From a virus, in IMG/VR virus record IMGVR_UViG_3300032797_000032, positions 1 to 64,000 of that record: a stretch of 64,000 bases of DNA; one strand, given 5' to 3'. The notes under the pieces are model-generated. The model was not told where the DNA came from. It did not search any database and saw only the letters and a list, made by a program, of their open reading frames with translations. Below, in pieces: positions 1 to 33,535 of the stretch. Numbering within the stretch: position 1 is the stretch's first letter; the number at the start of each line of letters is the position of its first letter. The position numbers were made by a program, and so were the translations under genes.

Positions 1-750
1 CCACATTCAACCGCTTACTTTAAGGGAGAGGTTGATGATTTCGTATACCCGTTTTTGATTCACTATGGTATTGGTAGCGAAAACAAGACCGTGGTATGCC
101 CTAAGACTTTAGGAGAGGGGCATAAGTGTCCTATCTGTGAGGACTCTTCGGTATTGTTTAAGTCTAATGATGAGTCTGATAAAGAGAAAGCCTCTGATAT
201 CTACCGCAAAAAGAGGTTTCTTATCAACGTGCTAGACCTTAAAGATGTTCAGAAGGGTATCCAGATATTTGAGTTTGGTCCAAAGATTTACAACAAGCTA
301 ATGCGGTATGTAGCCTCTGGGTTGTTTGGCGATATTCTAGACCTAGAGAAAGGGCGTAATATTGTGTTAGTAAAGGACGTTAGGGAAGGTAAGGCTCAGC
401 TAACTGACTATGATGTTTTGGTTAGCCCTGATGCCTCTAGCGTAATTAAGTATCTACCACAAGAGTATATGCAGAAGATTGATGACCTTGTTAAAGCTAT
501 ACCCCAGCCTAAGACGTATAATGAGATTAAGTCTATTCTTGGTGAGGGTATTGAGGATACGGCTCAACCAGCTCAACAACCTCCGCAAACTATGCACCAA
601 GAGCCTGTGCACCAAGAACAGCAACCGCCCAAGACTGAGACTCCTGTTTGTTATGGTAAAGAGTTCAGTTTGAAGTCAGCTAAGTGCCGACCTTGCGTTG
701 TGTTTGAGACCTGTAAGAAGGAGTTCATAAGATTGATAGATGAGGGATAA
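1..750 (+). CDS. gp32-like single-stranded DNA-binding protein (5' end outside window)
   Basis: Probably coats single-stranded DNA during replication and recombination. The frame is open from base 1, so the true N-terminus lies upstream. Visible codons C33, H41, C43 and C46 (the GHKCPIC cluster) match the zinc subdomain inside the OB fold of T4 gp32. Unlike gp32, which ends in an acidic tail, this protein has a Gln/Pro-rich linker (about codons 190-220) followed by a second Cys cluster (CYGKE..CRPCVVFETC). That C-terminal knuckle could bind a partner or DNA; its role is unknown. The recombinase UvsX follows 3 nt downstream, the usual functional partner. Family assignment rests on the zinc motif and context. 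Confidence 0.8.
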   Translation, partial: PHSTAYFKGEVDDFVYPFLIHYGIGSENKTVVCPKTLGEGHKCPICEDSSVLFKSNDESDKEKASDIYRKKRFLINVLDLKDVQKGIQIFEFGPKIYNKLMRYVASGLFGDILDLEKGRNIVLVKDVREGKAQLTDYDVLVSPDASSVIKYLPQEYMQKIDDLVKAIPQPKTYNEIKSILGEGIEDTAQPAQQPPQTMHQEPVHQEQQPPKTETPVCYGKEFSLKSAKCRPCVVFETCKKEFIRLIDEG

Positions 751-753
751 CCT

Positions 754-1746
754 ATGGACAATAAGAAGTTTATTGAAGACCTAGTAGAAGATGTAGAGGG
801 TGCTTCTATAGGAACAGAAGAGGTTGTTACAGAGTTCATTGACTCTGGAAACTATGCCCTCAACTATGTTATGACAGGAGACTTTCACAAGGGCTATCCT
901 AAAGGGCGAGTAATAGAGCTATTCGGAGACCCTTCAACTGGTAAGTCTCTGTGTATCTATACGGCTATAGCCGAGTTTCAGCGACAAGGGGGCATAGTTG
1001 TATTAGATGACACAGAATATGCCTTCTCTGAGCCCTTTGGTAAGATGCTAGGGGTAAACTGTGATGAGTTGATAGTCTTGCACTCTAATACAGTTGAGGA
1101 GCATTTTGAGGTTCTATTCCTTGGCTACACGATTGACAAGAAGCATAAAGACCCTATGCTACCAAAGCTAGTAGACCGCTTTGGAGATGGTAAGGTTATG
1201 GTATGTTTGGACTCTGTAGCCCAGCTCTCTACAAGACACGAATTAGAAGTAGGGCTTGCTAAGTCTGATATGACTAAAGCCAAACAGTTGAGGTCAGGAA
1301 TACGTCAAAGTGTGAAGTTTTTAAGCAGCAATAATGTTACTTACTTGATTAGTAACCATACTATTGCTGCAATTGGAGATATGTGGAACCCGAAAACTAC
1401 ACCAGGTGGCAAGGCTATTCCTTTCCAGTGTGCTGTTAGGTTAGAACTAGACTTAGGCAAGAAACTTTTTGACGATAATGACCAGCCTGAAGGTGTGATT
1501 AGCCGTGTTTATTGTAAGAAAAATAAGGTGTCTATACCATTCAGAAATTGCACCCTTCAAATAGACTTCAAACGTGGGCTCACACGCACGTCAGGTCTTT
1601 TAGATATGTTAGAGAAGTTTGGACTAGTGGAGTTAAAGGGTGCGTGGTATAACTATAAAGACATCAAGTTTCAGAGGGGAGACTTCGATAAGCACTATGA
1701 AAAGATTTTGGGCGATATTAAGGGCGAAGTTGCCCCCAAAAAATAG
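754..1746 (+). CDS. uvsX: UvsX/RecA-like strand-exchange recombinase
   Basis: ATP-dependent recombinase that pairs homologous DNA and drives recombination-dependent replication and repair. Walker A is GDPSTGKS at residues 58-65; a Walker B-like VMVCLDSVAQLS and a SNHT motif typical of the RecA core follow. At 330 residues it is slightly shorter than T4 UvsX (about 390). It starts with ATG 3 nt after the SSB gene and is presumably co-transcribed with it. The gp32-UvsX-gp47/46 neighbourhood forms a compact recombination module. Confidence 0.9.
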   Translation: MDNKKFIEDLVEDVEGASIGTEEVVTEFIDSGNYALNYVMTGDFHKGYPKGRVIELFGDPSTGKSLCIYTAIAEFQRQGGIVVLDDTEYAFSEPFGKMLGVNCDELIVLHSNTVEEHFEVLFLGYTIDKKHKDPMLPKLVDRFGDGKVMVCLDSVAQLSTRHELEVGLAKSDMTKAKQLRSGIRQSVKFLSSNNVTYLISNHTIAAIGDMWNPKTTPGGKAIPFQCAVRLELDLGKKLFDDNDQPEGVISRVYCKKNKVSIPFRNCTLQIDFKRGLTRTSGLLDMLEKFGLVELKGAWYNYKDIKFQRGDFDKHYEKILGDIKGEVAPKK

Positions 1747-1882: not shown

Positions 1883-2401
1883 TTGACGGCTCTAGTTAGG
1901 AGTGCCGTGGAGTTTGAACTCGTAACTAAATACCGAAATAAATTATACTCTTACGCACGTAGGTATAATGTTCCGCCAGAAGATGTATTCCAAGAAGCTC
2001 GTATAGTTGAATGGCGGATGTCCAAATACTCCCCAGCACACAAAGTCTCCTACTTCCTCAAATCCTGTAAAATCAATACGTTGAAAATCGCTAACTTCGG
2101 TGTAGTTGAATTAGATGAAAAGGCTCAAGAATGTTTGATAAGCTCTGGAGACTTTGACCGCTGGTTCGAGATATATGTGGAAGAACTAGCGGATATTTTG
2201 TATAAGATAGATGAAGTGGTTGGCGATATGTTTTTAGTTAAGGTCAACAACGAACTATCTTGGGCGTCAATAAGGCGTTCCTTCTTTAATGAAGTTCCAA
2301 AGAATAGATATTGGCATAATGTTCAAGCGATTAAAGAGAAAGCCTACGATTATATTAAGGGCGAGGATAAGCCTTTTCTACAACTATTAGAGGCTGTATG
2401 A
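1883..2401 (+). CDS. sigma-70 region 2-like protein, possible gp55-type late sigma factor
   Basis: Likely directs RNA polymerase to phage promoters. The stretch PPEDVFQEARIVEWRMSKYS followed by VSYFLKSCKIN resembles the core-binding helices of sigma region 2 (DLxQEgfi...F.tyl...i). No recognisable region 4 helix-turn-helix is present, as in the divergent T4 late factor gp55, which is of similar length (185 residues) and encoded near genes 46/47. The longest frame opens with TTG at 1883, but GTG at 1907 has an AGGAG 4 nt upstream and may be the real start. Its stop overlaps the next gene by ATGA. Function is inferred from a short motif. Confidence 0.45.
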   Translation: MTALVRSAVEFELVTKYRNKLYSYARRYNVPPEDVFQEARIVEWRMSKYSPAHKVSYFLKSCKINTLKIANFGVVELDEKAQECLISSGDFDRWFEIYVEELADILYKIDEVVGDMFLVKVNNELSWASIRRSFFNEVPKNRYWHNVQAIKEKAYDYIKGEDKPFLQLLEAV

Positions 2402-5319
2402 AGATATTGATTGTAGCTGACCCACATTTGCATACCTGGTCTTCCTTTAACCTAAACAAAGCTTCAGAGTTGTCGAGGCGTTTGCAAGAACAGGACGATA
2501 TTCTATCCCAAATATGTAACCTAGCAGAAGATAGAAAGGTTGACTCTGTAGAGATATTGGGAGACATATTCCATAAGGTTGGAGAGATACCTGTATTGTG
2601 CTTGAATATCTTTGATACTTTTCTAACTACTTTAGATGATTTGGAGATACCTTATCATATTACTACAGGAAACCACGATTTAGTAGTTAGAGATAATCCT
2701 GAATGGTATCACTCTGCAACTCAACTTTTTGATAAATGCGATGACGAGGTATACGGTCAGCTCAAAATTAAGCGTGTAGGGTATTCGGAGCACTTAGATT
2801 ACGACCAAGTTAAGGGTTATGACCTAGTGTTTTTACACAAGACCCCGTATGGGTCGAAGTATGGAAACTATACCTTTGATGAGGGTGTAGATTGGAAGAC
2901 GCTGTCTGAAAACAACCGCTTGGTATTCTTTGGACATATACACGAAAGACAAGAGCTTTCAAAGAACTGTATTGTAGTAGGCTCTCCTATGCACTTAACC
3001 TTTGGCGATGTGGGAGAGAGGGGTGTATATATTGTAGATACCGATACTTGGTCTATTGAATTCATCAAACTCAAATATCCTGAGTTTAGAAATGTTGAAA
3101 GCCTGTCAGAAGTTCAGGATTCATACAACTACTATAAGGTCAAAAATGTTAGAGGACAAGTTTCTACTGTTAGTAATGTTATTAGTGTTTCTGTGCCTGA
3201 TTTCTTCGATGAACGATTGAAGTCTGATTCGTTTGATGGTATTCTCAAAGAGTGGCTTCAGTTAAATCAAAAAGATGAAACTTACTTAGAGCTTATCAAA
3301 GATTTGGCGGTTGAGAAGTTTAAGCTAGCAAAACAGGTATTTCAGGGCGTTCTAGCTTCAGTTAAGGTAAAAGACTTTATGAGCATAGATAAGGCTACCT
3401 ACCAAGTGAGGAAAGGCTTTATCCTTGTTAAGGGACGCAATGAGAGCTTCTCTTCCAATGGGGCGGGTAAGACCTCTTTGTTTGAGGCAATCTTTTGGGG
3501 ACTCTTTGGAGAAACTACTAAGGGGCTAACTGGAGATGATGTAATACGTAGAGGTCAAAAAGATTGCGTTGTAGAGCTAACTCTCATAAACGACAAGGGA
3601 ATGTATTTAGTAAGGCGTAGCCGTAAGGCAGGGCTTAGCATAGTTATACCTGCAGATGCGGACGATGACGTAGTATTAGGGCTTAGAAAGACTGACCAGC
3701 AGACTTTGCTAGAAGAGAAGATTTTGGGCTTTGATAAAAATGTCTTTTTGGCAAGTTGCTATTTTAGTCAAGAGAACCTAGTAATGTTGACGGGTATGTC
3801 AGATACCGAGAAGACTAATACTATTACTAGCTTACTAGGTTTTGAAGTCTATGACGACTTATATGACGGAGTCTTTGATAGAATGAAAGACTTCGAGAAA
3901 GATATAGTAGACCGCAAAGTAGATGTAGAATTCCAAGAGAAGCTAGTAATTCAGCATAAGACTGAACTTGAAGGCTTAGAACGTATGGTGCAAGAGAAGC
4001 AAGATGAGATTAAGTATTATCAAAATCGTATCATAGAGGTTCAAAACAATATTGTAACCTATAAACAAGCTCTCCAAAAGGTTGAAACGATTGAAACGAT
4101 TGACTACGATGCTATCTTGAAAGAGCTATACGATATGGAGCAAATTTTCAATAATCAAAAAGATAGTATTGATGAGTTTATTTCTAATCTAGACCAGAAA
4201 GACTTTCAAACTAAGACCAGACAAAGAGAGCTTCAAGCTATTCGGGGTCAATACAAGATTAACATAGTATCCTTACAAAGAGAGATTACAGCTTTGGAGG
4301 AGTTGAAGTTTGGTGAGCGTTGCGATAAGTGCGGGGCTATTATATCCGAAGCCAATGCCGAGATTTTCAAACACGACAAGGCTAAGGAGATTGAAGATAT
4401 TATTGAGGTAAAGATTAAGGATATGGACTCCGAGTTCAGCGGTCTTGAGGTTACTAAGATGTCCATTGACAGGGCTAGAGTTGACCTTGACGAGAAGAGA
4501 AAGTCTGTCTTTGAGAAGCTTAACAAGGTTAGAAACGATACTAGAGAGTCCTTGACCGAGAAGTTAGTATACCAAGCTAAGGTTCAAGATATTTCTAGCC
4601 GAAGGGGAGACTTAGAGTATAAGCTACGAGATTGTGACAAGTCTATCAGTGATTACTCTGGTCGTATAGAAGAGATTGATGAGAAGATTAAGAAGCTTTG
4701 GGATGAAAAAGATATTAAACAAAAGGCTTTAGGAGATGTAGAGAAACGAATAACAGAGCTTAATTGGATGATAGACAAAACCCAAAAGGGTATAGAGGCT
4801 CTAGACTTTTGGAAAGTTGCCTTCTCTCCAAAGGGTATACGGGTTTTGTTATTAGATAGGTTCTGTAATGAGATAAACTCAATTGTTAATAACTACCTAG
4901 CTTCAATTAGCAACGGTTCTATGTCATTGGTAATCAAACCTACCTCTATATTAAAGTCTGGCGAAGAACGCAATAAGTTAGGACTAGATATACTTCTAGG
5001 TGGGGTAGTTGTTAAATATGAATCGTTGTCTGGTGGAGAGAAGAGGCGGGTAGATGTAGCTCTTTGCTTAGGGCTTAACGAATATATAAGTAAGCGGTTT
5101 AACCTAAAGAACGGCTTGCTAGGTTTCTTAATACTAGATGAAATCTTCAGCTATTTGGATTCAAGCGGTGAGGAAAGTATAGGGTCTTTACTATATCAAG
5201 AGGGCTTAAAGAAAGCAATCTTTGTTATATCCCATACCGATGAATTGACAAACTATGCGGCAGATACTTGGACTGTTTCTAAAGTTAATGGAGTCTCAAC
5301 ATTGGAGTTGACACATTGA
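2398..5319 (+). CDS. single-chain Mre11-Rad50 (SbcD-SbcC, gp47-gp46) nuclease fusion
   Basis: One 973-residue chain carries both halves of the DNA end-processing nuclease that resects breaks for recombination. Residues 1-330 form a calcineurin-type phosphoesterase: DPH (8-10), GDI (55-57), GNHD (91-94) and GHIH (179-182) supply the metal ligands. Residues 320-973 form an SMC-like ATPase: Walker A SNGAGKTS (353-360), coiled-coil arms broken by a zinc hook CDKC (642-645), signature LSGGEKRR (877-884) and Walker B LGFLILDE (908-915). In T4 and bacteria these are two separate genes. There is no stop or internal ribosome site between the halves in the sequence. It overlaps its neighbours by 4 nt and 4 nt. 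Confidence 0.93.
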   Translation: MKILIVADPHLHTWSSFNLNKASELSRRLQEQDDILSQICNLAEDRKVDSVEILGDIFHKVGEIPVLCLNIFDTFLTTLDDLEIPYHITTGNHDLVVRDNPEWYHSATQLFDKCDDEVYGQLKIKRVGYSEHLDYDQVKGYDLVFLHKTPYGSKYGNYTFDEGVDWKTLSENNRLVFFGHIHERQELSKNCIVVGSPMHLTFGDVGERGVYIVDTDTWSIEFIKLKYPEFRNVESLSEVQDSYNYYKVKNVRGQVSTVSNVISVSVPDFFDERLKSDSFDGILKEWLQLNQKDETYLELIKDLAVEKFKLAKQVFQGVLASVKVKDFMSIDKATYQVRKGFILVKGRNESFSSNGAGKTSLFEAIFWGLFGETTKGLTGDDVIRRGQKDCVVELTLINDKGMYLVRRSRKAGLSIVIPADADDDVVLGLRKTDQQTLLEEKILGFDKNVFLASCYFSQENLVMLTGMSDTEKTNTITSLLGFEVYDDLYDGVFDRMKDFEKDIVDRKVDVEFQEKLVIQHKTELEGLERMVQEKQDEIKYYQNRIIEVQNNIVTYKQALQKVETIETIDYDAILKELYDMEQIFNNQKDSIDEFISNLDQKDFQTKTRQRELQAIRGQYKINIVSLQREITALEELKFGERCDKCGAIISEANAEIFKHDKAKEIEDIIEVKIKDMDSEFSGLEVTKMSIDRARVDLDEKRKSVFEKLNKVRNDTRESLTEKLVYQAKVQDISSRRGDLEYKLRDCDKSISDYSGRIEEIDEKIKKLWDEKDIKQKALGDVEKRITELNWMIDKTQKGIEALDFWKVAFSPKGIRVLLLDRFCNEINSIVNNYLASISNGSMSLVIKPTSILKSGEERNKLGLDILLGGVVVKYESLSGGEKRRVDVALCLGLNEYISKRFNLKNGLLGFLILDEIFSYLDSSGEESIGSLLYQEGLKKAIFVISHTDELTNYAADTWTVSKVNGVSTLELTH

Positions 5320-6092
5320 GTTTCTGTATAGCTATACCTTCAAAGGGTCATCTTGACGCTAAGGTTTTCAAGCTCTTGGATAAATACTACCAAGACTTAA
5401 AGCCTCAGACCTTTGTCTTTACTTTGCCTTCAGACTACGAGGCTTACAAACAGACTTTGGACTTTAACATAGTAAAGCTACCTCAAGATGGTAAGGGTAT
5501 AGGGTTTGCTAGGCATCATATTGTAGATTACTGCAAGAGCCATAACTTTGATTATGTTTGGATGCTTGATGATGCAATTACCAATGTGTTGGCTAAGGTC
5601 AACCCTAAGAGGTATCGGGTATCTAAGGTTAGAACTAGGGTCTTTGAAGAAGGAGTTAAGCTAGCACAGAAGCTAGACATATCATTACTAGGTGTAGCCT
5701 TCTCCTTTATGGGGCGGTTTCACGATGCCGAGTTGTTTGATGTTGGAGATGTTGATGCCTTTGCTCTCTATAAGATAGATGACGTTCTAGAGGTAGGCAA
5801 CTTTGATAACAACTTGAGGTTTCTACCAGAGTCCGATATCAACTTCAAGCTAAGGCTTGCTAAGAAAAAAGTCAACTGTTGGTTTGAATATGCCTTCAAC
5901 CAAAAGGTTGTAGTAGACCGAACACCTGAGTATATTGCAACTAGGCAAAAGTATATTGAGATAATGCTAAAGAGGTATCCTGGTATTATCAAGTTGTGGG
6001 ATAAACACGATGGCTTTCCCCGCATAAAGACTAATTGGAGATACCTACGAAATGCCGCAAAATTTGACGGCAAGTTTCCAAAGGAGGTGTAG
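5316..6092 (+). CDS. GT-A-like glycosyltransferase, possibly TET-associated (TAGT) family
   Basis: Probably transfers a sugar, possibly onto modified DNA bases. The opening FCIAIPSKGH and the YVWMLDDAITN segment (a GT-A-type Asp-Asp metal/nucleotide-sugar motif) match the phage glycosyltransferases that Iyer and colleagues linked to TET/JBP base-modification systems. It starts with TTG inside the stop of the nuclease gene, with GGAG 8 nt upstream. No TET-type dioxygenase or hydroxymethylase is visible here, so a DNA substrate is inference; a protein or glycan substrate is equally open. Confidence 0.5.
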   Translation: MSFCIAIPSKGHLDAKVFKLLDKYYQDLKPQTFVFTLPSDYEAYKQTLDFNIVKLPQDGKGIGFARHHIVDYCKSHNFDYVWMLDDAITNVLAKVNPKRYRVSKVRTRVFEEGVKLAQKLDISLLGVAFSFMGRFHDAELFDVGDVDAFALYKIDDVLEVGNFDNNLRFLPESDINFKLRLAKKKVNCWFEYAFNQKVVVDRTPEYIATRQKYIEIMLKRYPGIIKLWDKHDGFPRIKTNWRYLRNAAKFDGKFPKEV

Positions 6093-7064: not shown

Positions 7065-7655
7065 ATGCCTACTGGTATTTACGAAAGAACAGTTTCTCAT
7101 AAAAAAGCAATATCTCGAAGCCTTAAAAATAAGGTTGGGTTTGGAAAACATATGATTGGAAAGAAATTTACATTAGTTACAAGGTTACGTATGTCTCAAT
7201 CGCAGATGGGACACAAAGGTTTTTGGCTAGGTAAAAAGAGAAATCAAGAATATTGTGACAGATTGTCTGCGATTATGAAAGAAGTTGTCAAAAAACGTAA
7301 ACCTGAGCATATTCAAAAGTTTCTATCTAAAATGTGTGCAAGACCTAATTGCAACGAGCTTCGAGGGTTACAATATCTTGAATCAATCTATCCTGGTAAG
7401 TTTAAGTATTGTGGGGATGGCTCAGTTCTTATCAATGGAAAGTCTCCTGATGCAATTTCTGAAGAACTACATACAGTAGTTTTGTTTCACGGAACTTACT
7501 TCCATCTAAAAGGAGAGGAGGTGAATGACTTTAATAAGTATTTGACTGAGCAAGTAGACCAACTTCCTTTTAGGGAAGCAGGTTGGAATGTAATTGTTTT
7601 GTGGGAAGATGAGTTAAGATTAAAGACTAAAGGAGGATATTATGTTAATAATTGA
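7065..7655 (+). CDS. free-standing homing endonuclease, NUMOD3-like N-terminus and Vsr-like nuclease domain
   Basis: Selfish DNA endonuclease that spreads its own gene by cutting alleles lacking it. MPTGIYERTVSHKKAISRSL and SQMGHKGFWLGKKRN are NUMOD3-type DNA-binding repeats. Residues about 100-190 (LQYLESIYPGKFKYCGDGS, NGKSPDAI, FHGTYFHLK, VIVLWEDEL) look like the Vsr-fold nuclease of EDxHD endonucleases. The C-terminal half is closely related to the endonuclease at 60128-60799. It sits in the 2-nt boundary after the DUF932-like gene, and its 3' end carries the AGGAGG of the following gene, so insertion did not disrupt downstream translation. Confidence 0.8.
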   Translation: MPTGIYERTVSHKKAISRSLKNKVGFGKHMIGKKFTLVTRLRMSQSQMGHKGFWLGKKRNQEYCDRLSAIMKEVVKKRKPEHIQKFLSKMCARPNCNELRGLQYLESIYPGKFKYCGDGSVLINGKSPDAISEELHTVVLFHGTYFHLKGEEVNDFNKYLTEQVDQLPFREAGWNVIVLWEDELRLKTKGGYYVNN

Positions 7656-10757: not shown

Positions 10758-11117
10758 ATGAAATTGAAGCGTGGATTTACTTTGGTTGAGGTTCTGATAG
10801 TTGTAGCGATTATTAGTTTGTTGGCTGCGATTGCTATACCGAATATGCAAGCATCGAGAGCTAAAGCAGGGCTACCGCCTTTGGGCTCTCATATACATAG
10901 AGAGGTAGCTCGCAATGCGGGAGGGGGTGATATTATGTTTAGGTTTGCTGAGTTACTTGTGATAATTGCGTTGTTGTATTTGATAGTAAACTTGTTGAGA
11001 TATGCATTCTTTAGAACCAGCTCTGATGGTCATTGGCTATTTGGGCTCTCAGATGTTTGGGTAAAGAAAGATGAAACTAAGAAAAATGAAAGTGAATCTG
11101 AAAGGAGACGAAGATGA
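10758..11117 (+). CDS. type IV prepilin-like protein with a second membrane span
   Basis: Begins with a class III signal peptide: basic leader MKLKRG, then FTLVEVLIVVAIISLLAAIA, with cleavage expected after G6 and the conserved Glu at +5 (E11). This is the prepilin peptidase and N-methylation motif of type IV pilins and type II secretion pseudopilins. The globular head of a pilin is missing; a second hydrophobic span (residues about 62-80) and a Lys/Glu tail follow. A GGGAGGGGG precedes an in-frame ATG at 10935, so the second half may also be made alone. ATG 10758 has AGGAGG upstream. Possibly interferes with host pili or secretion. Confidence 0.8.
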   Translation: MKLKRGFTLVEVLIVVAIISLLAAIAIPNMQASRAKAGLPPLGSHIHREVARNAGGGDIMFRFAELLVIIALLYLIVNLLRYAFFRTSSDGHWLFGLSDVWVKKDETKKNESESERRRR

Positions 11118-12124
11118 ACAGGAGAGGTCAAGCACTCGGAATTGGGGCGGCAGTTATAGTTGTTATGGCTTTAGTAATCTTCATTATGACCTTTGGCTGG
11201 GTCAATGTGCACCCAACAGAGGTTGCAGTAGAGATTAACAAAGCTGCGGGCAAAATCTATGATGCTCCGAAAGGGGTAGGCTATCATTTCTTCAATCGTT
11301 GGATTACGGATATGGTAGTCTATAAGGTTGCGGCAAGAGCATTTCCTGCAGAGCAGCTAGGCGAAGCTGATAGGAAGCTCTATCAATTAGATGTAAAAAC
11401 AAAAGATGGACAAAATGTAGTCTTGGATTTAACAGTATTGTATATGTTGAAGTCCAATGAGGTTCCCGCTTTACATCAACAGGTAGGTCAAAACTATGAA
11501 GACCAGATTATATTACCTCAAATAAGGTCAGAGGCTAGACTAGCAATTGGTGCTTATGCAGCAGAGGAAATATATCAGGGTAAGGTTAGGGATGAGATAC
11601 AAACTGAAGTTAGACGGAAGTTGTCTCTTGCTCTATCTAAGTATCCTGCTATTCAAATAAATGATACTTTGATTAGAAACTTCACCTTTAGTCCAGAGTT
11701 TGAGAAGGCTATTGAACGAAAGAAGTTAGCTGCTCAAGAGGTAGAAATCAATAAGAACCTTGCCTTAGCAGCTGAAGAGAATGCTAAGAAAGTTGAGGCA
11801 GATGCTCGTGGCGGTAAATTGCAAGCTATACAGGTTGCTGAAGGTGCTGCCCAAGCAGTTAAGATAAATGCTGAGGCAGAAAGGTATAAACTTGAACAAG
11901 AAGCCATTGGTAAACTTGCTGGGTATAAGGCTGATGCAGAGGGCAAAAGACTTCAGGCTGAGGCTTTAGGTGGGGGTAAGAACGTTGTAGCTTTGAAGTT
12001 TGCTGAGATGTTATCACCTACCTTAAAGATAGTTGGAGTGCCTGTAGGGGCGAACTCGACTTCTATAATGGATTTGAATGGAGTTTTCAAAGGGTTGTTC
12101 AGCAACTTGGATGAATCAAAATGA
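11114..12124 (+). CDS. SPFH/prohibitin (Band 7) membrane-scaffold protein
   Basis: Expected to assemble into rings or lattices on the inner membrane. Residues about 9-27 are a membrane anchor. The SPFH domain follows (about 30-210: VHPTEVAVEINKAAG, YQLDVKTKDGQNVVLDLTVL, IILPQIRSEARLAIG). Then comes an Ala/Glu-rich coiled coil (about 205-285) as in prohibitins, which usually oligomerise and modulate FtsH-type proteases. Overlaps the prepilin-like gene by 4 nt. Prohibitin-like genes occur sporadically in large phages; their role is not settled. Confidence 0.9.
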   Translation: MNRRGQALGIGAAVIVVMALVIFIMTFGWVNVHPTEVAVEINKAAGKIYDAPKGVGYHFFNRWITDMVVYKVAARAFPAEQLGEADRKLYQLDVKTKDGQNVVLDLTVLYMLKSNEVPALHQQVGQNYEDQIILPQIRSEARLAIGAYAAEEIYQGKVRDEIQTEVRRKLSLALSKYPAIQINDTLIRNFTFSPEFEKAIERKKLAAQEVEINKNLALAAEENAKKVEADARGGKLQAIQVAEGAAQAVKINAEAERYKLEQEAIGKLAGYKADAEGKRLQAEALGGGKNVVALKFAEMLSPTLKIVGVPVGANSTSIMDLNGVFKGLFSNLDESK

Positions 12125-15206: not shown

Positions 15207-15922
15207 ACTTAGAAAGGTTCAAAGTTGAAGAAAAGATACGAGAGAGCCTTAGAAAAAACAGAGGCGATGTCTTACAGGTAGCAGAAGAGACAGGGTTCTC
15301 ACTTCTTGTCATTATGAGGGTTGAAGACAAGATGGAGAAAAAGGAAGACCGTCAACCCTTTCATATAGAGGTAGGCAAGAATCTCACTAAAGAGATACTA
15401 CTTGGCAGGCACCAGAGAATACATCATCTGGTGCGAATGTTAAATAAGCTAGAAGACCGAGAACAAAAGGAAGTTTCAACTTGTTGTAGTTTTCCTTTTA
15501 TCTTTACGATTAAGGAACAAAAGAAGGTAACTGTCTGTAAGAAATGCGGTGAGGTTTGCCGCACCCTGCTTGTTGATAGCCTTGAGACCTATGATAAGAA
15601 GATGGAGATTATCAGAGAGCTAAGAGCTGAAGAAGATAAGTTAGTTGATTGGCTTGCTAAGATGGGCTATACTAATGCACCTATGCAACCTCAAATGCCT
15701 ACTGCTGTCATAAAGAATACACAATTGATATTTGGAAACCCCTCTAAGCTAAGTAGCGAAGAGCGTCAAGCTATCACAGATTTGAAAGATATGCCTCAAC
15801 AAGATGTAGAGAAAGTTATCAAAGAGATGGAGAAAGTGCTTATGACTGCTAAATATAGAGATGCTGAAGGAAACTTTATAGACCCTTCACTCAAAGAAAT
15901 CGATGGACCAAAACAGCAATAA
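15203..15922 (+). CDS. terS: candidate small terminase subunit
   Basis: Likely recognises phage DNA for packaging. Called mainly from position: it overlaps the large subunit by 20 nt. The N-terminus contains a helix-turn-helix-like stretch (GDVLQVAEETGFSLLVIMRV), a central helical hairpin and a CKKCGEVC zinc knuckle near residue 112-118, followed by a Gln/Pro linker. Sequence similarity to known TerS is not evident, which is usual for this family. Confidence 0.6.
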   Translation: MNLERFKVEEKIRESLRKNRGDVLQVAEETGFSLLVIMRVEDKMEKKEDRQPFHIEVGKNLTKEILLGRHQRIHHLVRMLNKLEDREQKEVSTCCSFPFIFTIKEQKKVTVCKKCGEVCRTLLVDSLETYDKKMEIIRELRAEEDKLVDWLAKMGYTNAPMQPQMPTAVIKNTQLIFGNPSKLSSEERQAITDLKDMPQQDVEKVIKEMEKVLMTAKYRDAEGNFIDPSLKEIDGPKQQ

Positions 15923-17843
15923 GTATGAGAAATTAGATACACTCAACGCCAATACTAATGCTATTATCTATAAAGAACAACCAGCAGATATTATTCATTT
16001 TGTTTGTGACTCCTACTATTTAGGGGAGTCAACAGATAATGGTAGAGCAATCTACCCTGCTTGGAAAGAAAAGTTGATGGAGATGTTTTTCGACAACTCC
16101 AGATACTTAGTTGTTCTAACAGGTGCTATAGGTATAGGCAAGACCAATACTGCTATCTTAGGTATGCTATATGTCTTGCACCGCATTCTCTGCCTCAAAG
16201 ACCCTTTCGCTTTCTTCAATGCCGTTGACGTAGGCAAGTTTACCGTTTCTTTCTTTAACCTTACCAAAACCCTCAGTCAGTCAAAAGGTTTCAATACAAT
16301 GCAAGACTACTTGATGAAGTCTAAGTGGTTTTGGGCACACGGAGGTGTTTTGAGAGGGGCTAAGGACAAGTATATGGAGTTGCCTATCTTTGATTGGAAC
16401 TTAGCCTCTCCATATGCTAAGGGTTATGGTAGTATTGGGGCGCACGTTATTACGTCCTTGATGGATGAGATTGATAGTCCATCAGAGTCAGAGAACCAGA
16501 AGCTTAGGGTATTGAACGCATACGAGGCTACTGTTAGACGGTTCGACTCCCGCTTTGTCCGCAAAGGTTCAACTATGGGTAGATTCTTCTTAGTATCTTC
16601 AAAACAGGATGAGTTGTCTTTTTTGAATACCTTTGTGGAAGAGATGAAGTCATCAGGCAGAGTATTCATCGTAGATTTACCGCTTTGGAAAGCTAAAGCT
16701 CACTTACCTAAACAATACTCTGGAGATATGTTCCCTGTTATGGTAGGCGATACCTATACGGAGCCTAAGATACTGAGCTCTGAAGATGAAGTCAACCAAT
16801 CAAAACTCCAAGGCTTTGAAGTTATTGATGTGCCTGTAGAATATAAGAACGACTTTGAAAGGGATATCATAGGAGCTCTTAGGGATATAGCAGGGGTATC
16901 GGTCAAAGGCGTAAGAGCTTCAAAGTTCTTTCCATCCGAAAGATTTCTTACGGCTTGTTATGACGAGAACAAGCCTGACCCTGTTAGTAAGACTACTATT
17001 GAGATAGGTTTACAAGATAAGCAAGAGTTGATAGAATACATAGATTTGAGTTTGATACGAGTGCCTTACGGAATTCCAAGATGTATCTCTTGCGATATTG
17101 CCTTCACTAATGACGCACTAGGTATAGCTATGTCAGGTATTGTAGGTTGGACTGAAGTGCAGTCTGAGAAGAGTGATGGGACTTTCGCAAGCGTTAAGGC
17201 TCCTGTAGTAGAGACCGACATTGTGATACGGTTGAAGGCTAGAGAAGGTGACCGTATACCTATGCACAAGGTTAGAAAGCTAGTGCTAGACTTGAGAGCT
17301 AAGGGCTTTAACATAATCAAGTTTACCTCAGACCTTATGCTTGCATCTGAAGATACCTTCCAAATACTCCAAAGAGTTGGAATTGAGTGCCAATACTTCT
17401 CTGTTGACAAGACAATGCAACCATATCTAGACTTTAGGAATATGGTATACGAGAACCGTTGGCTCTGTCACAGACACGAGTATCTTCACTTCGAGCTCAA
17501 GAACTTGGAAGTTGACAGCGTAAAGGGTAAGATTGAACATCCTGACAAAGTCAAAGACGTTCTGCTTTTGAAGGATGGGAGCGTCAAAGATGTAGTCCTC
17601 ACAGGCTCTAAAGACTTGTCTGACTGCGTTGTTGCTTCAGTTATCAATGCTGCTCTTAGTCAAAAGACTCCTGTTGATGTTGCTAAGATGAAAGAGATTA
17701 TGCGTAAGTCTATGGCTTCTTCAGAGGCAGAGGCAGAGAAACACAAGTATTGGTGGGCTTTTGACGAGAGGACGGGCAAGCCAGTGGTTGGCACAAGTGA
17801 TGATATGAATAAGTTTAAGAACTTGTTGAAGAAACAATTGTAG
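15903..17843 (+). CDS. terL: terminase large subunit (packaging ATPase and nuclease)
   Basis: Motor that pumps DNA into the prohead and cuts concatemers. Walker A GAIGIGKT at 74-81; Walker B VITSLMDEID with D188/E189; a coupling-type VSSKQDE near 231-237. The C-terminal RNase H-like nuclease starts at CDIAFTNDALGIAM (D398). The 646 residues are close to T4 gp17 (610). A sigma factor gene follows and then the portal. Confidence 0.9.
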   Translation: MDQNSNKYEKLDTLNANTNAIIYKEQPADIIHFVCDSYYLGESTDNGRAIYPAWKEKLMEMFFDNSRYLVVLTGAIGIGKTNTAILGMLYVLHRILCLKDPFAFFNAVDVGKFTVSFFNLTKTLSQSKGFNTMQDYLMKSKWFWAHGGVLRGAKDKYMELPIFDWNLASPYAKGYGSIGAHVITSLMDEIDSPSESENQKLRVLNAYEATVRRFDSRFVRKGSTMGRFFLVSSKQDELSFLNTFVEEMKSSGRVFIVDLPLWKAKAHLPKQYSGDMFPVMVGDTYTEPKILSSEDEVNQSKLQGFEVIDVPVEYKNDFERDIIGALRDIAGVSVKGVRASKFFPSERFLTACYDENKPDPVSKTTIEIGLQDKQELIEYIDLSLIRVPYGIPRCISCDIAFTNDALGIAMSGIVGWTEVQSEKSDGTFASVKAPVVETDIVIRLKAREGDRIPMHKVRKLVLDLRAKGFNIIKFTSDLMLASEDTFQILQRVGIECQYFSVDKTMQPYLDFRNMVYENRWLCHRHEYLHFELKNLEVDSVKGKIEHPDKVKDVLLLKDGSVKDVVLTGSKDLSDCVVASVINAALSQKTPVDVAKMKEIMRKSMASSEAEAEKHKYWWAFDERTGKPVVGTSDDMNKFKNLLKKQL

Positions 17844-28971: not shown

Positions 28972-29489
28972 TGAAGAATCTTCTAAATATAACTTTGGGT
29001 GTTGCGGCAGTTGTGTCAGCAATACCACAAACACAGCCTCCTATTACCCTAGCTGAGAGAGGTATCAACACACAAAAACTGCTTGATGCCGTAAAGCTGG
29101 TAGAGTCAAATGGAGGAAAAGATACCGAGCCTAGATTCGAATATTCGGTATACCGCAAGCTACGCAGAGACTACAACATATTGAGACCGCATATACAAGA
29201 AGCTATACAGAAATACGGCTTCAAGAAGTTGGCGACCTCGTATGGACCATATCAAGTCCTTGGTTCGACTGCGGTATTCCTAGGCTTCGAGGGTGACCCT
29301 AGAGAGCTAATGCAAGAGTCCGTCTGTAAAGAGTGGGCATCCCGATACGTTAGGTATCTGATTTCCTCGGATAAGACTCATAGCCTAACCGATGTCGTAT
29401 CGGCATACAATGCAGGGCTAGGTGGCATAGGTAAAAATCCAGACTATACAAATAGAATTCTAGAATGCTATAAGGGAGGCGATAAATGA
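28971..29489 (+). CDS. lytic transglycosylase (SLT-like)
   Basis: Cleaves peptidoglycan. Catalytic Glu is E45 in LVESNGG; TSYGPYQVLGSTAVFLGF, YVRYLISS and DVVSAYNAGLGGIGKNPDYT match the GxxQ, AYNAG and Y motifs of the SLT fold. A hydrophobic N-terminus (MKNLLNITLGVAAVVSAIP) could be a signal or anchor; it may equally be a virion-borne enzyme used at DNA entry. It overlaps the large acidic protein gene by 4 nt. Confidence 0.88.
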   Translation: MKNLLNITLGVAAVVSAIPQTQPPITLAERGINTQKLLDAVKLVESNGGKDTEPRFEYSVYRKLRRDYNILRPHIQEAIQKYGFKKLATSYGPYQVLGSTAVFLGFEGDPRELMQESVCKEWASRYVRYLISSDKTHSLTDVVSAYNAGLGGIGKNPDYTNRILECYKGGDK

Positions 29490-32400
29490 AAGGGCTTTAT
29501 GATTTCCTAAAAGAAGGAGATAACATATTTGAAAAGACATATACTTGGGGCTATGAGGTCTTGAAAGCTCCAGAAGGTGGACCAGGGACTGCCACATTGA
29601 AGAGCACTATAAAGGGCATTCCTGGCGTAAGACTTGTAACCTTCCCTTCTGCTTATATGGGTCATACATCTGTTAGAATCACTGCCAATTCTAGAGAAGC
29701 CCTTTCTAAAGCCCTTACTATATTACAAGATTATGGCTACATTGACAGTGTTGCCGATGGAATGAGAAGCGTAACATCAGAAGCAGAATATGATGCCCAT
29801 CAACCTGCTGACGTTGCTGCGGGCAAGGAAGTTGCTAGTCAATCTGCTGAGTTTCACAAAGCCCACGAACAGGTCTTTGGAAGTTCCTCTGGTGGAGCCC
29901 AAGATGTGCAAGAAACTGGAGAGATGGGTCACGGTGATATTACACAAGGTGGGGAAGATTATGAGTGGGCAAAGGCTATTGAGGAGGACGTCAAGGAGAT
30001 AGAAAAGATTACAAAGGGTAAGTTGAAATTTGAGGGTATGAAGCCCTTCGACAAATACCGTGGTCCATATGCTGCTACTAGCTTAGGTAGGATTTGGGAT
30101 GCAGGAGTTGAAGGTGAGAAATACTTGTTTATGGAAAACTCCAACTGGGTTGGCACAGCCCAAGAGCTAGCACAAGCAATCAATGGAGATGCGACCGCTA
30201 GGGCTTTAGTAGTCAACCAAGCCAAGACCGCTGCTGGAGAGCCTACCGAACCTGACTTTAACCCTGCCCAAATGAAGTTCCCCTTCGCTGAGTCCTGTGT
30301 CAAGAGTATTAAAGAAGCAGACATAGACAAATATACCAAGCACGAGGAATATACTCCTGAAGAGTTTGACAAAAGGGGATTCTATCTTTCAGATGACCAG
30401 AAGAAAACCGTAGAGACTGCTAAAGCGGAGGGCAAGAAACTGTTAGCTTCTATCTCTTACCTACCTTTTGGAAACTATCTTATGCATCTGTCTATAATAG
30501 AGGGCAAGGTTCCTAACCCTAAAGATACCGAAGACAAGCAAAGGCAAGATATGACTGAAGCCCTTGACCCTAGAATACCCGACCAAGCAATTGACTTTCG
30601 GTATATCTCTGGAACCAAGACCTTCAAGAACGGCACGAAAGAGTATAACTTGTTAAATGCTCTAGAAGATAAGGCTTGGGAAGACTACTTAGATGTTATG
30701 GCAGGGTCAGGCACTACGGTTGAATACGACCTCGTCAGAGATGTCTTTACTGCTAGTAATGTAGTAGGGGAATCTACTAAGCGGTCAAAGTCTGCTAAGG
30801 TATTGAGAGAACAGAAGATAAACGAACAAGAACCCCCGCCAGAACCAGCTCCAGAGACAGGTGCAGAGATACCAGAAGAGCCAACCCTAGAAGAGCCTCC
30901 TGCAGAGCCTCCTAAAGAAGAGAAACCTAAAGAAGAGGAAGAGCCTAAGAAAGAGGAGCCTGTCAAGGAGAAACCCTCATACACTAAGGAATACTTCGGG
31001 TCAAAAGGAACTGATAAGCACTATTACTTTATCCACAAGATGACCGAAGATGGTATGACGGTTGACGATTTACAAGTCCTTGATATTGAGGATAACATAG
31101 TCTTCTCCGCCAAAGAAAAACAAATGGATGTATTAGGTGAGAGGGCTTTCTTGAAAGCAGCAGCTGAAGCTACAGGCATAGATATGATAGCCTATGATGT
31201 GGTAATGCGGTATAAAATGCTTGAAGAGGAGCCTCCTTTGGAAGAGAAACCCGAAGACGAAGTGCCTGAGTTAAAACCCAAAGAGGAGGAAAAACCCGAA
31301 CAGAAGTCTGAGCCAGAAGTTGGACCAAAGAGTGAAGAGGAGGCTCCTCCCAAAGAAAGCTTTAAGCGACCCGCCAAACAAAAGATTGAGGAAGGTTACG
31401 AGCAGATTGGTTCAGGTAAGTTACCTAACAAGTATTACGTAACAGGCTCTGGCGATTACTATATGATGGTAAAGAGAGGCACGCTTGACTGGGCTTCTGA
31501 GCAACTTAAAGACTTCAAGCCTAAGTCTAAGAAGTATGGGGTATTCAATACCTATAAAGAGGCGACTGCTGCAGTAGATACCGCATCAGCCTCAGAGTTT
31601 GGTAGTGAACCTAATCCTGCAGGTATCAATACTATAACTGTTGAAGACCATTTGACAGGAGAGCTTCTACACTATGGGTTTGTTGCCTATAAGCAAGCTG
31701 GGTATCGCTATGAGATTGAGCAGTTTGGCGATACTAAGTTTACAGCAGAGAAGATGAAACAAGCTGGGCAGACCTTTGAGACTGGAGACAGTCCTGGTCC
31801 AGAGAAGTGCGTAAAGTGCGGAGTTCATATTGGCACTAAGGTAGCACAGAACTTCGGTGGCAAGTGTCCTGAGTGTTGGGAAGAGGACGAGAAGGCTGCT
31901 GGAAAAATGGACGAAGCCAAGCTTCCTAAGGTAGTCCTTGCAGACTTGAAGAAGCTTATGTCTGAGCCGTATGACGAGATTGCTCACAAGCTAGATGTAT
32001 CTCACGAAACCGTCAAGGCTCTGCTTCAGGCTCTTATGGTGCACGCTGAGGGAGAGAAAGAATCAATCTATGACAAGAAGCTTAAAGAGGGCACTTGGGC
32101 TACTCCAAATACTCAAGCTAAGAAACAAGCTCTGTTAGCATTCCTTGATGGGTTAGACGAAGGTGAGCTTGAGCCCTTGGAAGACTTCTTGTATTCTAAG
32201 CTCGGAGATGATGAGCTCTTTGATGAACTTGAAGATATTGTTAAGCCCGTATGCAAGCCTATTGCTAAGGCTATTAGAAAGAAATTGAAAGACCTCAACA
32301 TAGTAATAGAGTCCTCGATGGACGAAACTGTAAAGCTTCGCAAGATGACCGATGATGACCGTATGGGCTTTGCAGGTGCAGAGGGTGAGGCAATGATTGG

Positions 32401-33535
32401 AGATATACATACCTCGGAGGGTGCAGGTATTGTTATCGTAGACCAAGCGGGCATTGCGATTATAATTGGAGATGAGAAGCCGATAGAGTTTCACAAGGAG
32501 ATGGTATTTGATGATGGTATAAGGCTTGTGCAAGCATTCAAAGAGCCCATCAGTATAGACTCCTTGAAGGCTATGGGATTCGTTAACATAACGGAGTCTA
32601 AAAAGGAGTCCAAGAAAATGAAAAACTTAAAAGAAGCTGATGCAGTTCCTGAAAAGGGAGATAATCCTGAAACTACAATACCTGTCTCTGGCACAAAGAC
32701 CCCAGAGAAAGAACCGAAGAAAGAGGAACAACCTACAACTCAAGAGAAACCAGTAGAAGTTGGCGAACCTCAAAATCAAGTAACCGAATTGAAGGACAAA
32801 GAGGAGGTGAAGGACAAAGTGAAAGAGGCTAAAGAGAAGGATATAAAGGATAAGATTACAGAGATATTCAAGTTCCTGGATGAGGAATGGTCGAAGTTTC
32901 CAACAAAGGCTGAAGCAATCGCAAAGTTGACTACAAAGTTCGGTATTGGTGAGGATATGGCAAGGGCAACGCTAGGGGTTGCTGAATACTACAACGGCAA
33001 GCTAGACGATGGCACACCCGTAGCAGAGCCTGTGGCACCTGCCCCTGCACTAACCCCTGAGCCTCCTCCTGTTGCTCCAGCACCTGTAGCAATGGAAGCA
33101 AAGCTACCAGATTTGTCAAAACAGGAAGATGATATCAAGAAAGCATTGCTTGAAAAGCATCTAGGCAAAAAGGTAGATGAGGATAAAGACAAAGAGGCAA
33201 AAGAGAAAGAAGAGAAGGAAAAGAAAGAAAAAGAGGAAAAGGAAAAGAAAGAGAAGGAAGCTAAGGAAAAGAAGAAAGTCAAAGAAGATGTGCAGGAAGA
33301 TGTAAATATCAATGTCACAACCGATAAGCAAGATATCCAAGTTACTGCGGTTGAGGACGGTGGAGTTCATACTACGGTAGTAGACAAGGCAACTGGTGCA
33401 GAGACCGCTGCTGTGGCACCTGCTCCTGAAGTGCCAGCTGTTGAAGCTCCAGCACCTGTGGAAGAGGAACCTGTTGCGATTGAATGTGAAGAGAGTATTC
33501 ACAAGTTTATGAAGTCTTTCGGTAATAGAGGATAA
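29486..33535 (+). CDS. 1349-residue acidic modular protein, candidate internal head polyprotein
   Basis: Starts with the tag MKGLYDFLKEGDN (L-K-E at 8-10). Alternating compact domains and Pro/Glu/Lys linkers (about 445-500, 590-640, 1100-1150, 1180-1290), so possibly processed by the prohead protease. Includes a zinc ribbon (CVKCGV...CPECWE, about 775-805), an HTH-like helix set (PYDEIAHKLDVSHETVKALL) and a repeated KEK-rich helix. A module at residue 1205 (AKLPDLSKQEDDIKKALLEK) recurs in the gene at 46797. Extreme length and composition fit an internal core protein. Confidence 0.8.
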   Translation: MKGLYDFLKEGDNIFEKTYTWGYEVLKAPEGGPGTATLKSTIKGIPGVRLVTFPSAYMGHTSVRITANSREALSKALTILQDYGYIDSVADGMRSVTSEAEYDAHQPADVAAGKEVASQSAEFHKAHEQVFGSSSGGAQDVQETGEMGHGDITQGGEDYEWAKAIEEDVKEIEKITKGKLKFEGMKPFDKYRGPYAATSLGRIWDAGVEGEKYLFMENSNWVGTAQELAQAINGDATARALVVNQAKTAAGEPTEPDFNPAQMKFPFAESCVKSIKEADIDKYTKHEEYTPEEFDKRGFYLSDDQKKTVETAKAEGKKLLASISYLPFGNYLMHLSIIEGKVPNPKDTEDKQRQDMTEALDPRIPDQAIDFRYISGTKTFKNGTKEYNLLNALEDKAWEDYLDVMAGSGTTVEYDLVRDVFTASNVVGESTKRSKSAKVLREQKINEQEPPPEPAPETGAEIPEEPTLEEPPAEPPKEEKPKEEEEPKKEEPVKEKPSYTKEYFGSKGTDKHYYFIHKMTEDGMTVDDLQVLDIEDNIVFSAKEKQMDVLGERAFLKAAAEATGIDMIAYDVVMRYKMLEEEPPLEEKPEDEVPELKPKEEEKPEQKSEPEVGPKSEEEAPPKESFKRPAKQKIEEGYEQIGSGKLPNKYYVTGSGDYYMMVKRGTLDWASEQLKDFKPKSKKYGVFNTYKEATAAVDTASASEFGSEPNPAGINTITVEDHLTGELLHYGFVAYKQAGYRYEIEQFGDTKFTAEKMKQAGQTFETGDSPGPEKCVKCGVHIGTKVAQNFGGKCPECWEEDEKAAGKMDEAKLPKVVLADLKKLMSEPYDEIAHKLDVSHETVKALLQALMVHAEGEKESIYDKKLKEGTWATPNTQAKKQALLAFLDGLDEGELEPLEDFLYSKLGDDELFDELEDIVKPVCKPIAKAIRKKLKDLNIVIESSMDETVKLRKMTDDDRMGFAGAEGEAMIGDIHTSEGAGIVIVDQAGIAIIIGDEKPIEFHKEMVFDDGIRLVQAFKEPISIDSLKAMGFVNITESKKESKKMKNLKEADAVPEKGDNPETTIPVSGTKTPEKEPKKEEQPTTQEKPVEVGEPQNQVTELKDKEEVKDKVKEAKEKDIKDKITEIFKFLDEEWSKFPTKAEAIAKLTTKFGIGEDMARATLGVAEYYNGKLDDGTPVAEPVAPAPALTPEPPPVAPAPVAMEAKLPDLSKQEDDIKKALLEKHLGKKVDEDKDKEAKEKEEKEKKEKEEKEKKEKEAKEKKKVKEDVQEDVNINVTTDKQDIQVTAVEDGGVHTTVVDKATGAETAAVAPAPEVPAVEAPAPVEEEPVAIECEESIHKFMKSFGNRG

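Follow-up and report, generated by a model that had tools for sequence, protein, structure and literature searches.

The 64,000-nucleotide stretch analyzed here (the window) comprises positions 1 to 64,000 of the IMG/VR virus record IMGVR_UViG_3300032797_000032, which totals 107,096 bases and may be a fragment. Proteins encoded by the record match portal, tail sheath, and baseplate proteins in library scans, which identifies its source as a myovirus. At positions 2398-5319 on the plus strand, the window carries a gene of 973 codons with no internal stops, in which a homolog of the nuclease Mre11 (SbcD) is fused to a homolog of the ATPase Rad50 (SbcC). That both homologs share one uninterrupted frame was the core of an original prediction made from the sequence, and it is now confirmed by the open reading frame (ORF) itself and by Pfam and PHROG matches. 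The features of the gene are as follows.

2398..5319, plus strand: fused Mre11(SbcD)-Rad50(SbcC) gene, 973 amino acids (ORF, Pfam and PHROG matches; single-frame in 9/9 full-length relatives)
2398..3099, plus strand: Mre11 nuclease (calcineurin-like phosphoesterase) domain, approximately residues 1-234 (Pfam, structure match, profile alignment)
3124..3198, plus strand: capping region in reduced form (residues 243-267; modeled as two strands)
3232..3321, plus strand: helix-loop-helix by which Mre11 would bind Rad50, residues 279-308 (helices in the model, profile alignment)
3322..3345, plus strand: join or linker, residues 309-316, with the next strand from 318
3346..5316, plus strand: Rad50/SbcC ATPase with coiled coil, residues 317-973 (PHROG, structure match)
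3457..3474, plus strand: Walker A motif NGAGKT, residues 354-359
4321..4332, plus strand: zinc-hook CxxC, C642-C645
5026..5040, plus strand: ABC signature LSGGE, residues 877-881
5122..5160, plus strand: Walker B and D-loop, GFLILDEIFSYLD, residues 909-921

Library matches divide the protein into two parts. Pfam places Metallophos at residues 1-183 (E 4e-9), SMC_N at 319-965 (4e-13), and AAA_23 at 321-550 (7e-10), and PHROG places the SbcD-like phrog_100 at 1-311 (8e-36) and the SbcC-like phrog_77 at 311-970 (3e-75). NCBIfam also matches both domains, with every match below its curated cut-offs. The N-terminal part is a calcineurin-like phosphoesterase with the five metal-binding motifs of an Mre11/SbcD nuclease (D8-x-H10, G55-D56, G91-N92-H93-D94, H147, and G179-H180-I-H182). 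The C-terminal part has the Walker A motif (N354-G-A-G-K358-T), signature (L877-S-G-G-E881), Walker B/D-loop (D914-E915), and coiled coil with CxxC hook (C642-x-x-C645) that mark a Rad50/SbcC ATPase. Every phosphoesterase and Rad50 motif that the original prediction had named was located in the 973-residue frame. By analogy with P. furiosus Mre11, we take D8, H10, D56, N92, H93, H147, H180, and H182 to be the residues that serve the metal motifs. No second match to phrog_77 or phrog_100 appeared in a PHROG scan of the 107-kb record, and the fusion is therefore its only recognizable SbcC/SbcD copy.

Two AlphaFold2 models were made with only the window and viral-contig sequences as input. The model of residues 1-335 (14 alignment rows) has a predicted local distance difference test (pLDDT) score of 80.8 and a predicted template modeling (pTM) score of 0.75, and the whole-chain model (11 rows) scores 79.1 and 0.59. 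Residues 1-267 match Mre11/SbcD structures (7dog, Z 23.1, root-mean-square deviation [rmsd] 2.8 over 245 residues; 3dsd, Z 23.0), and in the whole-chain model residues 317-973 match Rad50 (3qku, Z 30.2, rmsd 4.4 over 349). Residue 317 of the model aligns to residue 1 of both P. furiosus Rad50 and E. coli SbcC. Just upstream, the whole-chain model has helices at 279-289, 295-298, and 301-308, the position of the Rad50-binding helix-loop-helix, and here a profile aligns with T. maritima Mre11 (3qg5) up to residue 377 of 379. These helices and this alignment indicate a C-terminal helix-loop-helix, whose binding to Rad50 is predicted. Because this element is kept and residue 317 falls on Rad50 residue 1, Mre11 ends naturally and Rad50 begins naturally, and the two are joined end to end.

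Approximately 8 residues (309-316) separate the end of Mre11 from the start of Rad50. In the T. maritima complex, 9-12 residues were estimated to bridge the two ends, which already lie about 28 Å apart when the proteins are in complex (Yoshida, Claverie and Ogata 2011; PMC3175470). Since the docking helices are kept and the subunits are joined at ends that are about this far apart (PMC3175470), the fusion probably restricts the normal cycle little. A fixed stoichiometry and a constrained opening of the complex, both proposed earlier, may be among its effects.

It could be argued that the working subunits are separate after all, either because the chain is cut after synthesis or because translation from an internal start yields Rad50 as well. 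A TTG at residue 303 and an ATG at residue 328 are the start codons nearest the join and are compatible with such a scheme; none lies at the join, and both of these are off the Rad50 start. Initiation at 328, however, would leave Rad50 without its first strand and without F327, an invariant residue, and initiation at 303 would fall within the Rad50-binding helices. Judging from these start codons, we regard separate subunits as very unlikely.

Viral contigs were scanned with the window protein and with alignments of its relatives, and the widest scan yielded 15 loci. These consist of nine full-length relatives, two fragments from data set 3300031746 (L003/L025 and L029), and four weak, distant matches (L030-L033). 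The full-length relatives, all from IMG/VR, are 36-44% identical to the window protein in their best segments. Together with the window protein, they form one clade in all four trees that we inferred (support 100, 100, 100, and 99). No DNA-level match to the fusion gene was found in 50,697 phage records, and the best tblastn matches in that collection, which include unfused proteins of Herelleviridae and of Pseudomonas phage hairong, are only about 25% identical. Thus, no close cultured member of the clade is present in the phage collection. One scan of bacterial genomes with alignment A1 returned 51 pattern matches and no relatives. Among plasmids, 909 of 72,556 records matched, and of the 25 matches listed, 24 extend across more than two thirds of the query. 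Two of the plasmids were examined, and they encode the nuclease and the ATPase as separate genes.

Conservation within the clade bears on whether the nuclease half still cuts, because it might instead serve Rad50 as a DNA-binding or docking domain. A reduced cap would fit such a role, as would two of the nine full-length relatives (L023 and L024), in which motif I reads D-x-Q rather than D-x-H and so lacks its His. This change could alter metal binding in those two proteins. The window protein, in contrast, has all eight motif residues, and seven of them (D8, D56, N92, H93, H147, H180, and H182) are invariant among the 7 full-length rows of alignment A3. The role of these residues is given in part in PMC3175470. 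An inactive nuclease is highly improbable. In the ATPase half, both Cys residues of the hook (C642 and C645) are invariant in the 11 rows of alignment A4.

All nine full-length relatives, each on a different contig from the window gene, encode the fusion in one uninterrupted frame of 941-1062 amino acids; that of L002 is listed as 1001 amino acids from an upstream GTG. In L030-L033 the nuclease lies in a separate frame of 321-367 amino acids, and the scan was thus able to reveal unfused cases. An assembly or sequencing artefact that merged two overlapping genes, which had been named as grounds for abandoning the prediction, is conceivable in that the unfused genes of hairong overlap by 4 bases and one insertion or deletion could join such genes, but its chance is negligible given that nine of nine relatives are single-frame on separate contigs, which excludes coincidence or a lone assembly error, and that annotated GenBank phages carry fusions in single coding sequences as well.

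The original prediction had implied that this architecture was unknown and called for a search for it in other phages. Fusions have in fact been in print since 2011: Yoshida and colleagues reported one in Mimivirus R555 and in twelve other proteins, among which are some from plasmids, bacteria, and eukaryotes and one from Bacillus phage 0305phi8-36; in their argument, the true niche of the Mre11/Rad50 fusion is in viruses (PMC3175470). Many GenBank phages also carry such genes. Together these cases largely amount to what the original prediction had named as refuting it, many known phages already annotated with the fusion, though the GenBank phages are not annotated as fusions. A tblastn search of the phage collection with the fusion of Rhizobium phage RHph_TM30 (959 amino acids, annotated “recombination endonuclease protein”) matched 37 records; in 19 of these, a single place covers 80% or more of the query. 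We examined ten of the records, and nine encode a fusion in a single coding sequence: Rhizobium phage RHph_TM30 (L004), Escherichia phage IME392 (L007), Acinetobacter phage 3098 (L008), Vibrio phages Va2 (L009) and 1.031.O (L010), Cobetia phage Carin-5 (L011), Yersinia phage GN1 (L012), Thermus phage phiLo (L013), and Xanthomonas phage phiXF1 (L014). Annotations among the examined records read hypothetical, “coil containing”, SbcC-like, SbcD-like, or endonuclease, and never fusion.

The tenth record, YerA41 (L018), is split inside Rad50. At L018:905-3942, the nuclease and the first part of Rad50 occupy one ORF and the last part of the ATPase occupies the next, overlapping ORF, whereas GN1 (L012:1938-4736) has a single ORF; for YerA41, a split gene and a frameshift are both possible. 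PHROG families phrog_77 and phrog_100 (967 and 989 positions) are long enough for fusions, and no match spanned both halves when separate halves and six fused phage proteins were scanned. Our literature search, with most subscription journals outside its reach, found only PMC3175470 on Mre11/Rad50 fusions including those of phage. Passages of PMC7824862 describe SbcC and SbcD as separate proteins.

In the whole-chain model, the region that separates the phosphoesterase from the helix-loop-helix contains just two strands (245-251 and 261-265). By our reading of the sequences, the corresponding stretch of unfused relatives, hairong among them, is longer and resembles strand-helix-strand. The capping domain is thus reduced to what appears to be a beta-hairpin. 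Measured from motif V to where Rad50 begins, or in unfused nucleases to the last residue, the distance is 132-149 residues in the clade (10 members, with that of the window counted), 123-165 in nine fused proteins of other phages, and 141-161 in all 11 unfused proteins. The medians are 135 for fused (n=19) and 156 for unfused proteins (n=11), and a rank test gives p 3e-4, a value that is uncorrected for kinship and concerns ranges that overlap. The earlier figure of about 140 residues beyond the final nuclease motif agrees with the 135 measured, but unfused phage nucleases are only slightly longer there. The accompanying claim that no separate cap is recognizable stands insofar as the region is reduced and shorter than in unfused proteins, but not entirely, because the model retains a two-strand remnant. 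In an obligatory single-chain clade, the cap might have shrunk to a hairpin while the tether between nuclease and Rad50 took over part of its DNA-presenting role, with cap loss accompanying fusion in phages generally; we consider this idea doubtful.

On whether phage fusions arose once or several times, the nuclease and ATPase trees disagree, and approximately unbiased (AU) tests clearly reject neither history. In the first tree (29 rows), the window clade and the other fused phages each stand apart, with the deep forks unsupported either way. L033, which has a very long branch, was dropped after this tree, and L014 was dropped from the concatenated tree only. The concatenated tree without these two rows places all 18 fused rows on one side of a branch (support 98), and the Rad50-only tree groups all 19 fused rows (91). 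The nuclease-only tree, from which L012 was left out because its annotated start lies inside the nuclease, places the window clade with unfused Herelleviridae (86). For the nuclease, holding all fused rows together gives p 0.08 in the AU test. For Rad50, placing the clade with unfused phage and plasmid rows gives p 0.26, and placing it with Herelleviridae gives p 0.12. A separate AU test (p 0.04) left out L014, which falls inside the fused group, and has no bearing on origins.

The unfused best tblastn matches had led us to expect an independent fusion in the window clade, which the trees neither confirm nor reject. The nuclease stop of hairong overlaps its Rad50 start by 4 bases as ATGA, so that a one-base shift would be enough to fuse such genes. 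The fusion may have come about by such a shift.

The genes on either side of the fusion are listed below.

55..750, plus strand: gp32-like single-strand DNA-binding protein (Pfam gp32, E 1e-12; phrog_1192)
754..1746, plus strand: UvsX/RecA-like recombinase (phrog_97, E 2e-56; RecA, E 2e-33)
1883..2401, plus strand: 172-residue ORF that overlaps the fusion start by 4 bases (ATGA), with a sub-threshold Sigma70_r2 match
5316..6092, plus strand: TAGT-type glycosyltransferase ORF that overlaps the fusion stop by 4 bases (Pfam TAGT, E 1e-11; phrog_842)

The 4-base overlaps of the fusion gene with both flanking ORFs resemble those of a tightly packed operon. In L019 and L026, UvsX and the fusion flank a homolog of the 172-residue ORF. 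UvsX homologs lie near the fusion in L019, L024, L026, and L027, and gp32 homologs in L019, L020, L024, and L027; at the remaining clade loci, several of which are cut short, no match to either was seen near the fusion. The adjoining glycosyltransferase raises the possibility that the phage DNA bears glycosylated bases.

Several other genes of the window deserve mention. A 646-residue ORF just before the portal gene (15903-17843) has no Pfam or PHROG match, and a P-loop-like sequence, GAIGIGKT, occurs in the related L003 protein; the ORF is probably a divergent large terminase. An 896-residue ORF (39812-42502) matches a head maturation protease at residues 69-255 only, and a 1349-residue ORF (29486-33535) has no Pfam or PHROG match. 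The window also encodes an SPFH/Band 7 protein (11114-12124) and a NUMOD3-containing, homing-endonuclease-like protein (7065-7655).

In T4, gp46/gp47, UvsX, and gp32 make up the set for recombination-dependent replication. Here, a gp46/47-like protein is encoded with UvsX-like and gp32-like proteins, and these neighbors point to replication of the T4 type. PMC3175470 likewise ties T4 gp46/47 and UvsX to this process. We are largely confident in reading the gene as one for a single-chain Mre11-Rad50 (SbcDC) complex, encoded by an uncultured myovirus, that would work as in T4-type recombination-dependent replication. By analogy with the SbcCD, Mre11-Rad50, and T4 literature, two fused chains would pair to give the usual assembly of two nucleases and two ATPases. 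ATP would close the Rad50 heads over DNA and keep the nuclease off, and hydrolysis would allow the nuclease to reach the DNA end and cut. The coiled coils would meet at the zinc hook and tether DNA. The neighboring gp32-like and UvsX-like proteins would then take over the processed end and use it for strand invasion and for recombination-dependent replication, like that served by T4 gp46/gp47.

Several points weigh against this interpretation. The models rest on 11 and 14 rows, with a whole-chain pTM of 0.59, and the docking of nuclease on ATPase is a presumed arrangement. The join, about 8 residues long, barely reaches or falls slightly short of the 9-12 estimated for bridging (PMC3175470). 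A second copy may lie beyond the record if the latter is a fragment. Finally, the Gln in place of the motif I His in L023 and L024 means that activity may not hold clade-wide.

As the original prediction had stated, T4 and bacteria keep two genes, which is seen for T4 and E. coli. Both halves of the window protein match the fold of E. coli SbcCD, which differs in having two genes that overlap by 4 bases and a long coiled coil (SbcC is 1048 amino acids). The unfused phage pairs of SPO1, Twort, and Enterococcus Herelleviridae, of Pseudomonas phage hairong (Nickievirus), and of T4 (gp46/gp47) share with the window protein the kinds of nuclease and short-coil Rad50; they differ in having two genes, a longer cap region, and a nuclease tail of 141-161 residues after motif V. 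The nine GenBank phage fusions likewise consist of one frame (866-1082 amino acids) with the same domain order and a similar length after motif V, but they are 17-22% identical to the window protein and form their own group in the trees. Seven of the nine (L004, L007, L008, L009, L010, L013, and L014) have GDxH for GHxH at motif V. This is the kind of change reported for Mimivirus R555 in PMC3175470 and may tie them to the R555 kind.

The fusions of Yoshida and colleagues similarly place Mre11 at the N terminus and Rad50 at the C terminus of one frame and are often viral or plasmid-borne (PMC3175470). By the descriptions given there, Mimivirus R555 is longer (1351 amino acids), with one His of motif V replaced by Asp, and the protein of Bacillus phage 0305phi8-36 lacks one ATPase segment as well as the region of the cap and helix-loop-helix, whereas the window protein retains the helix-loop-helix and both ATPase halves. 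The phage fusion is a stable trait across a whole clade rather than a rarity of giant viruses, and its biology is otherwise as expected. A natural single-chain Mre11-Rad50 of fewer than 1000 residues, with a short coiled coil and a small cap, would suit minimal structural or single-molecule work on ATP gating. Fusions of this kind have been known since 2011; what is new here is an uncultured clade with a small cap.

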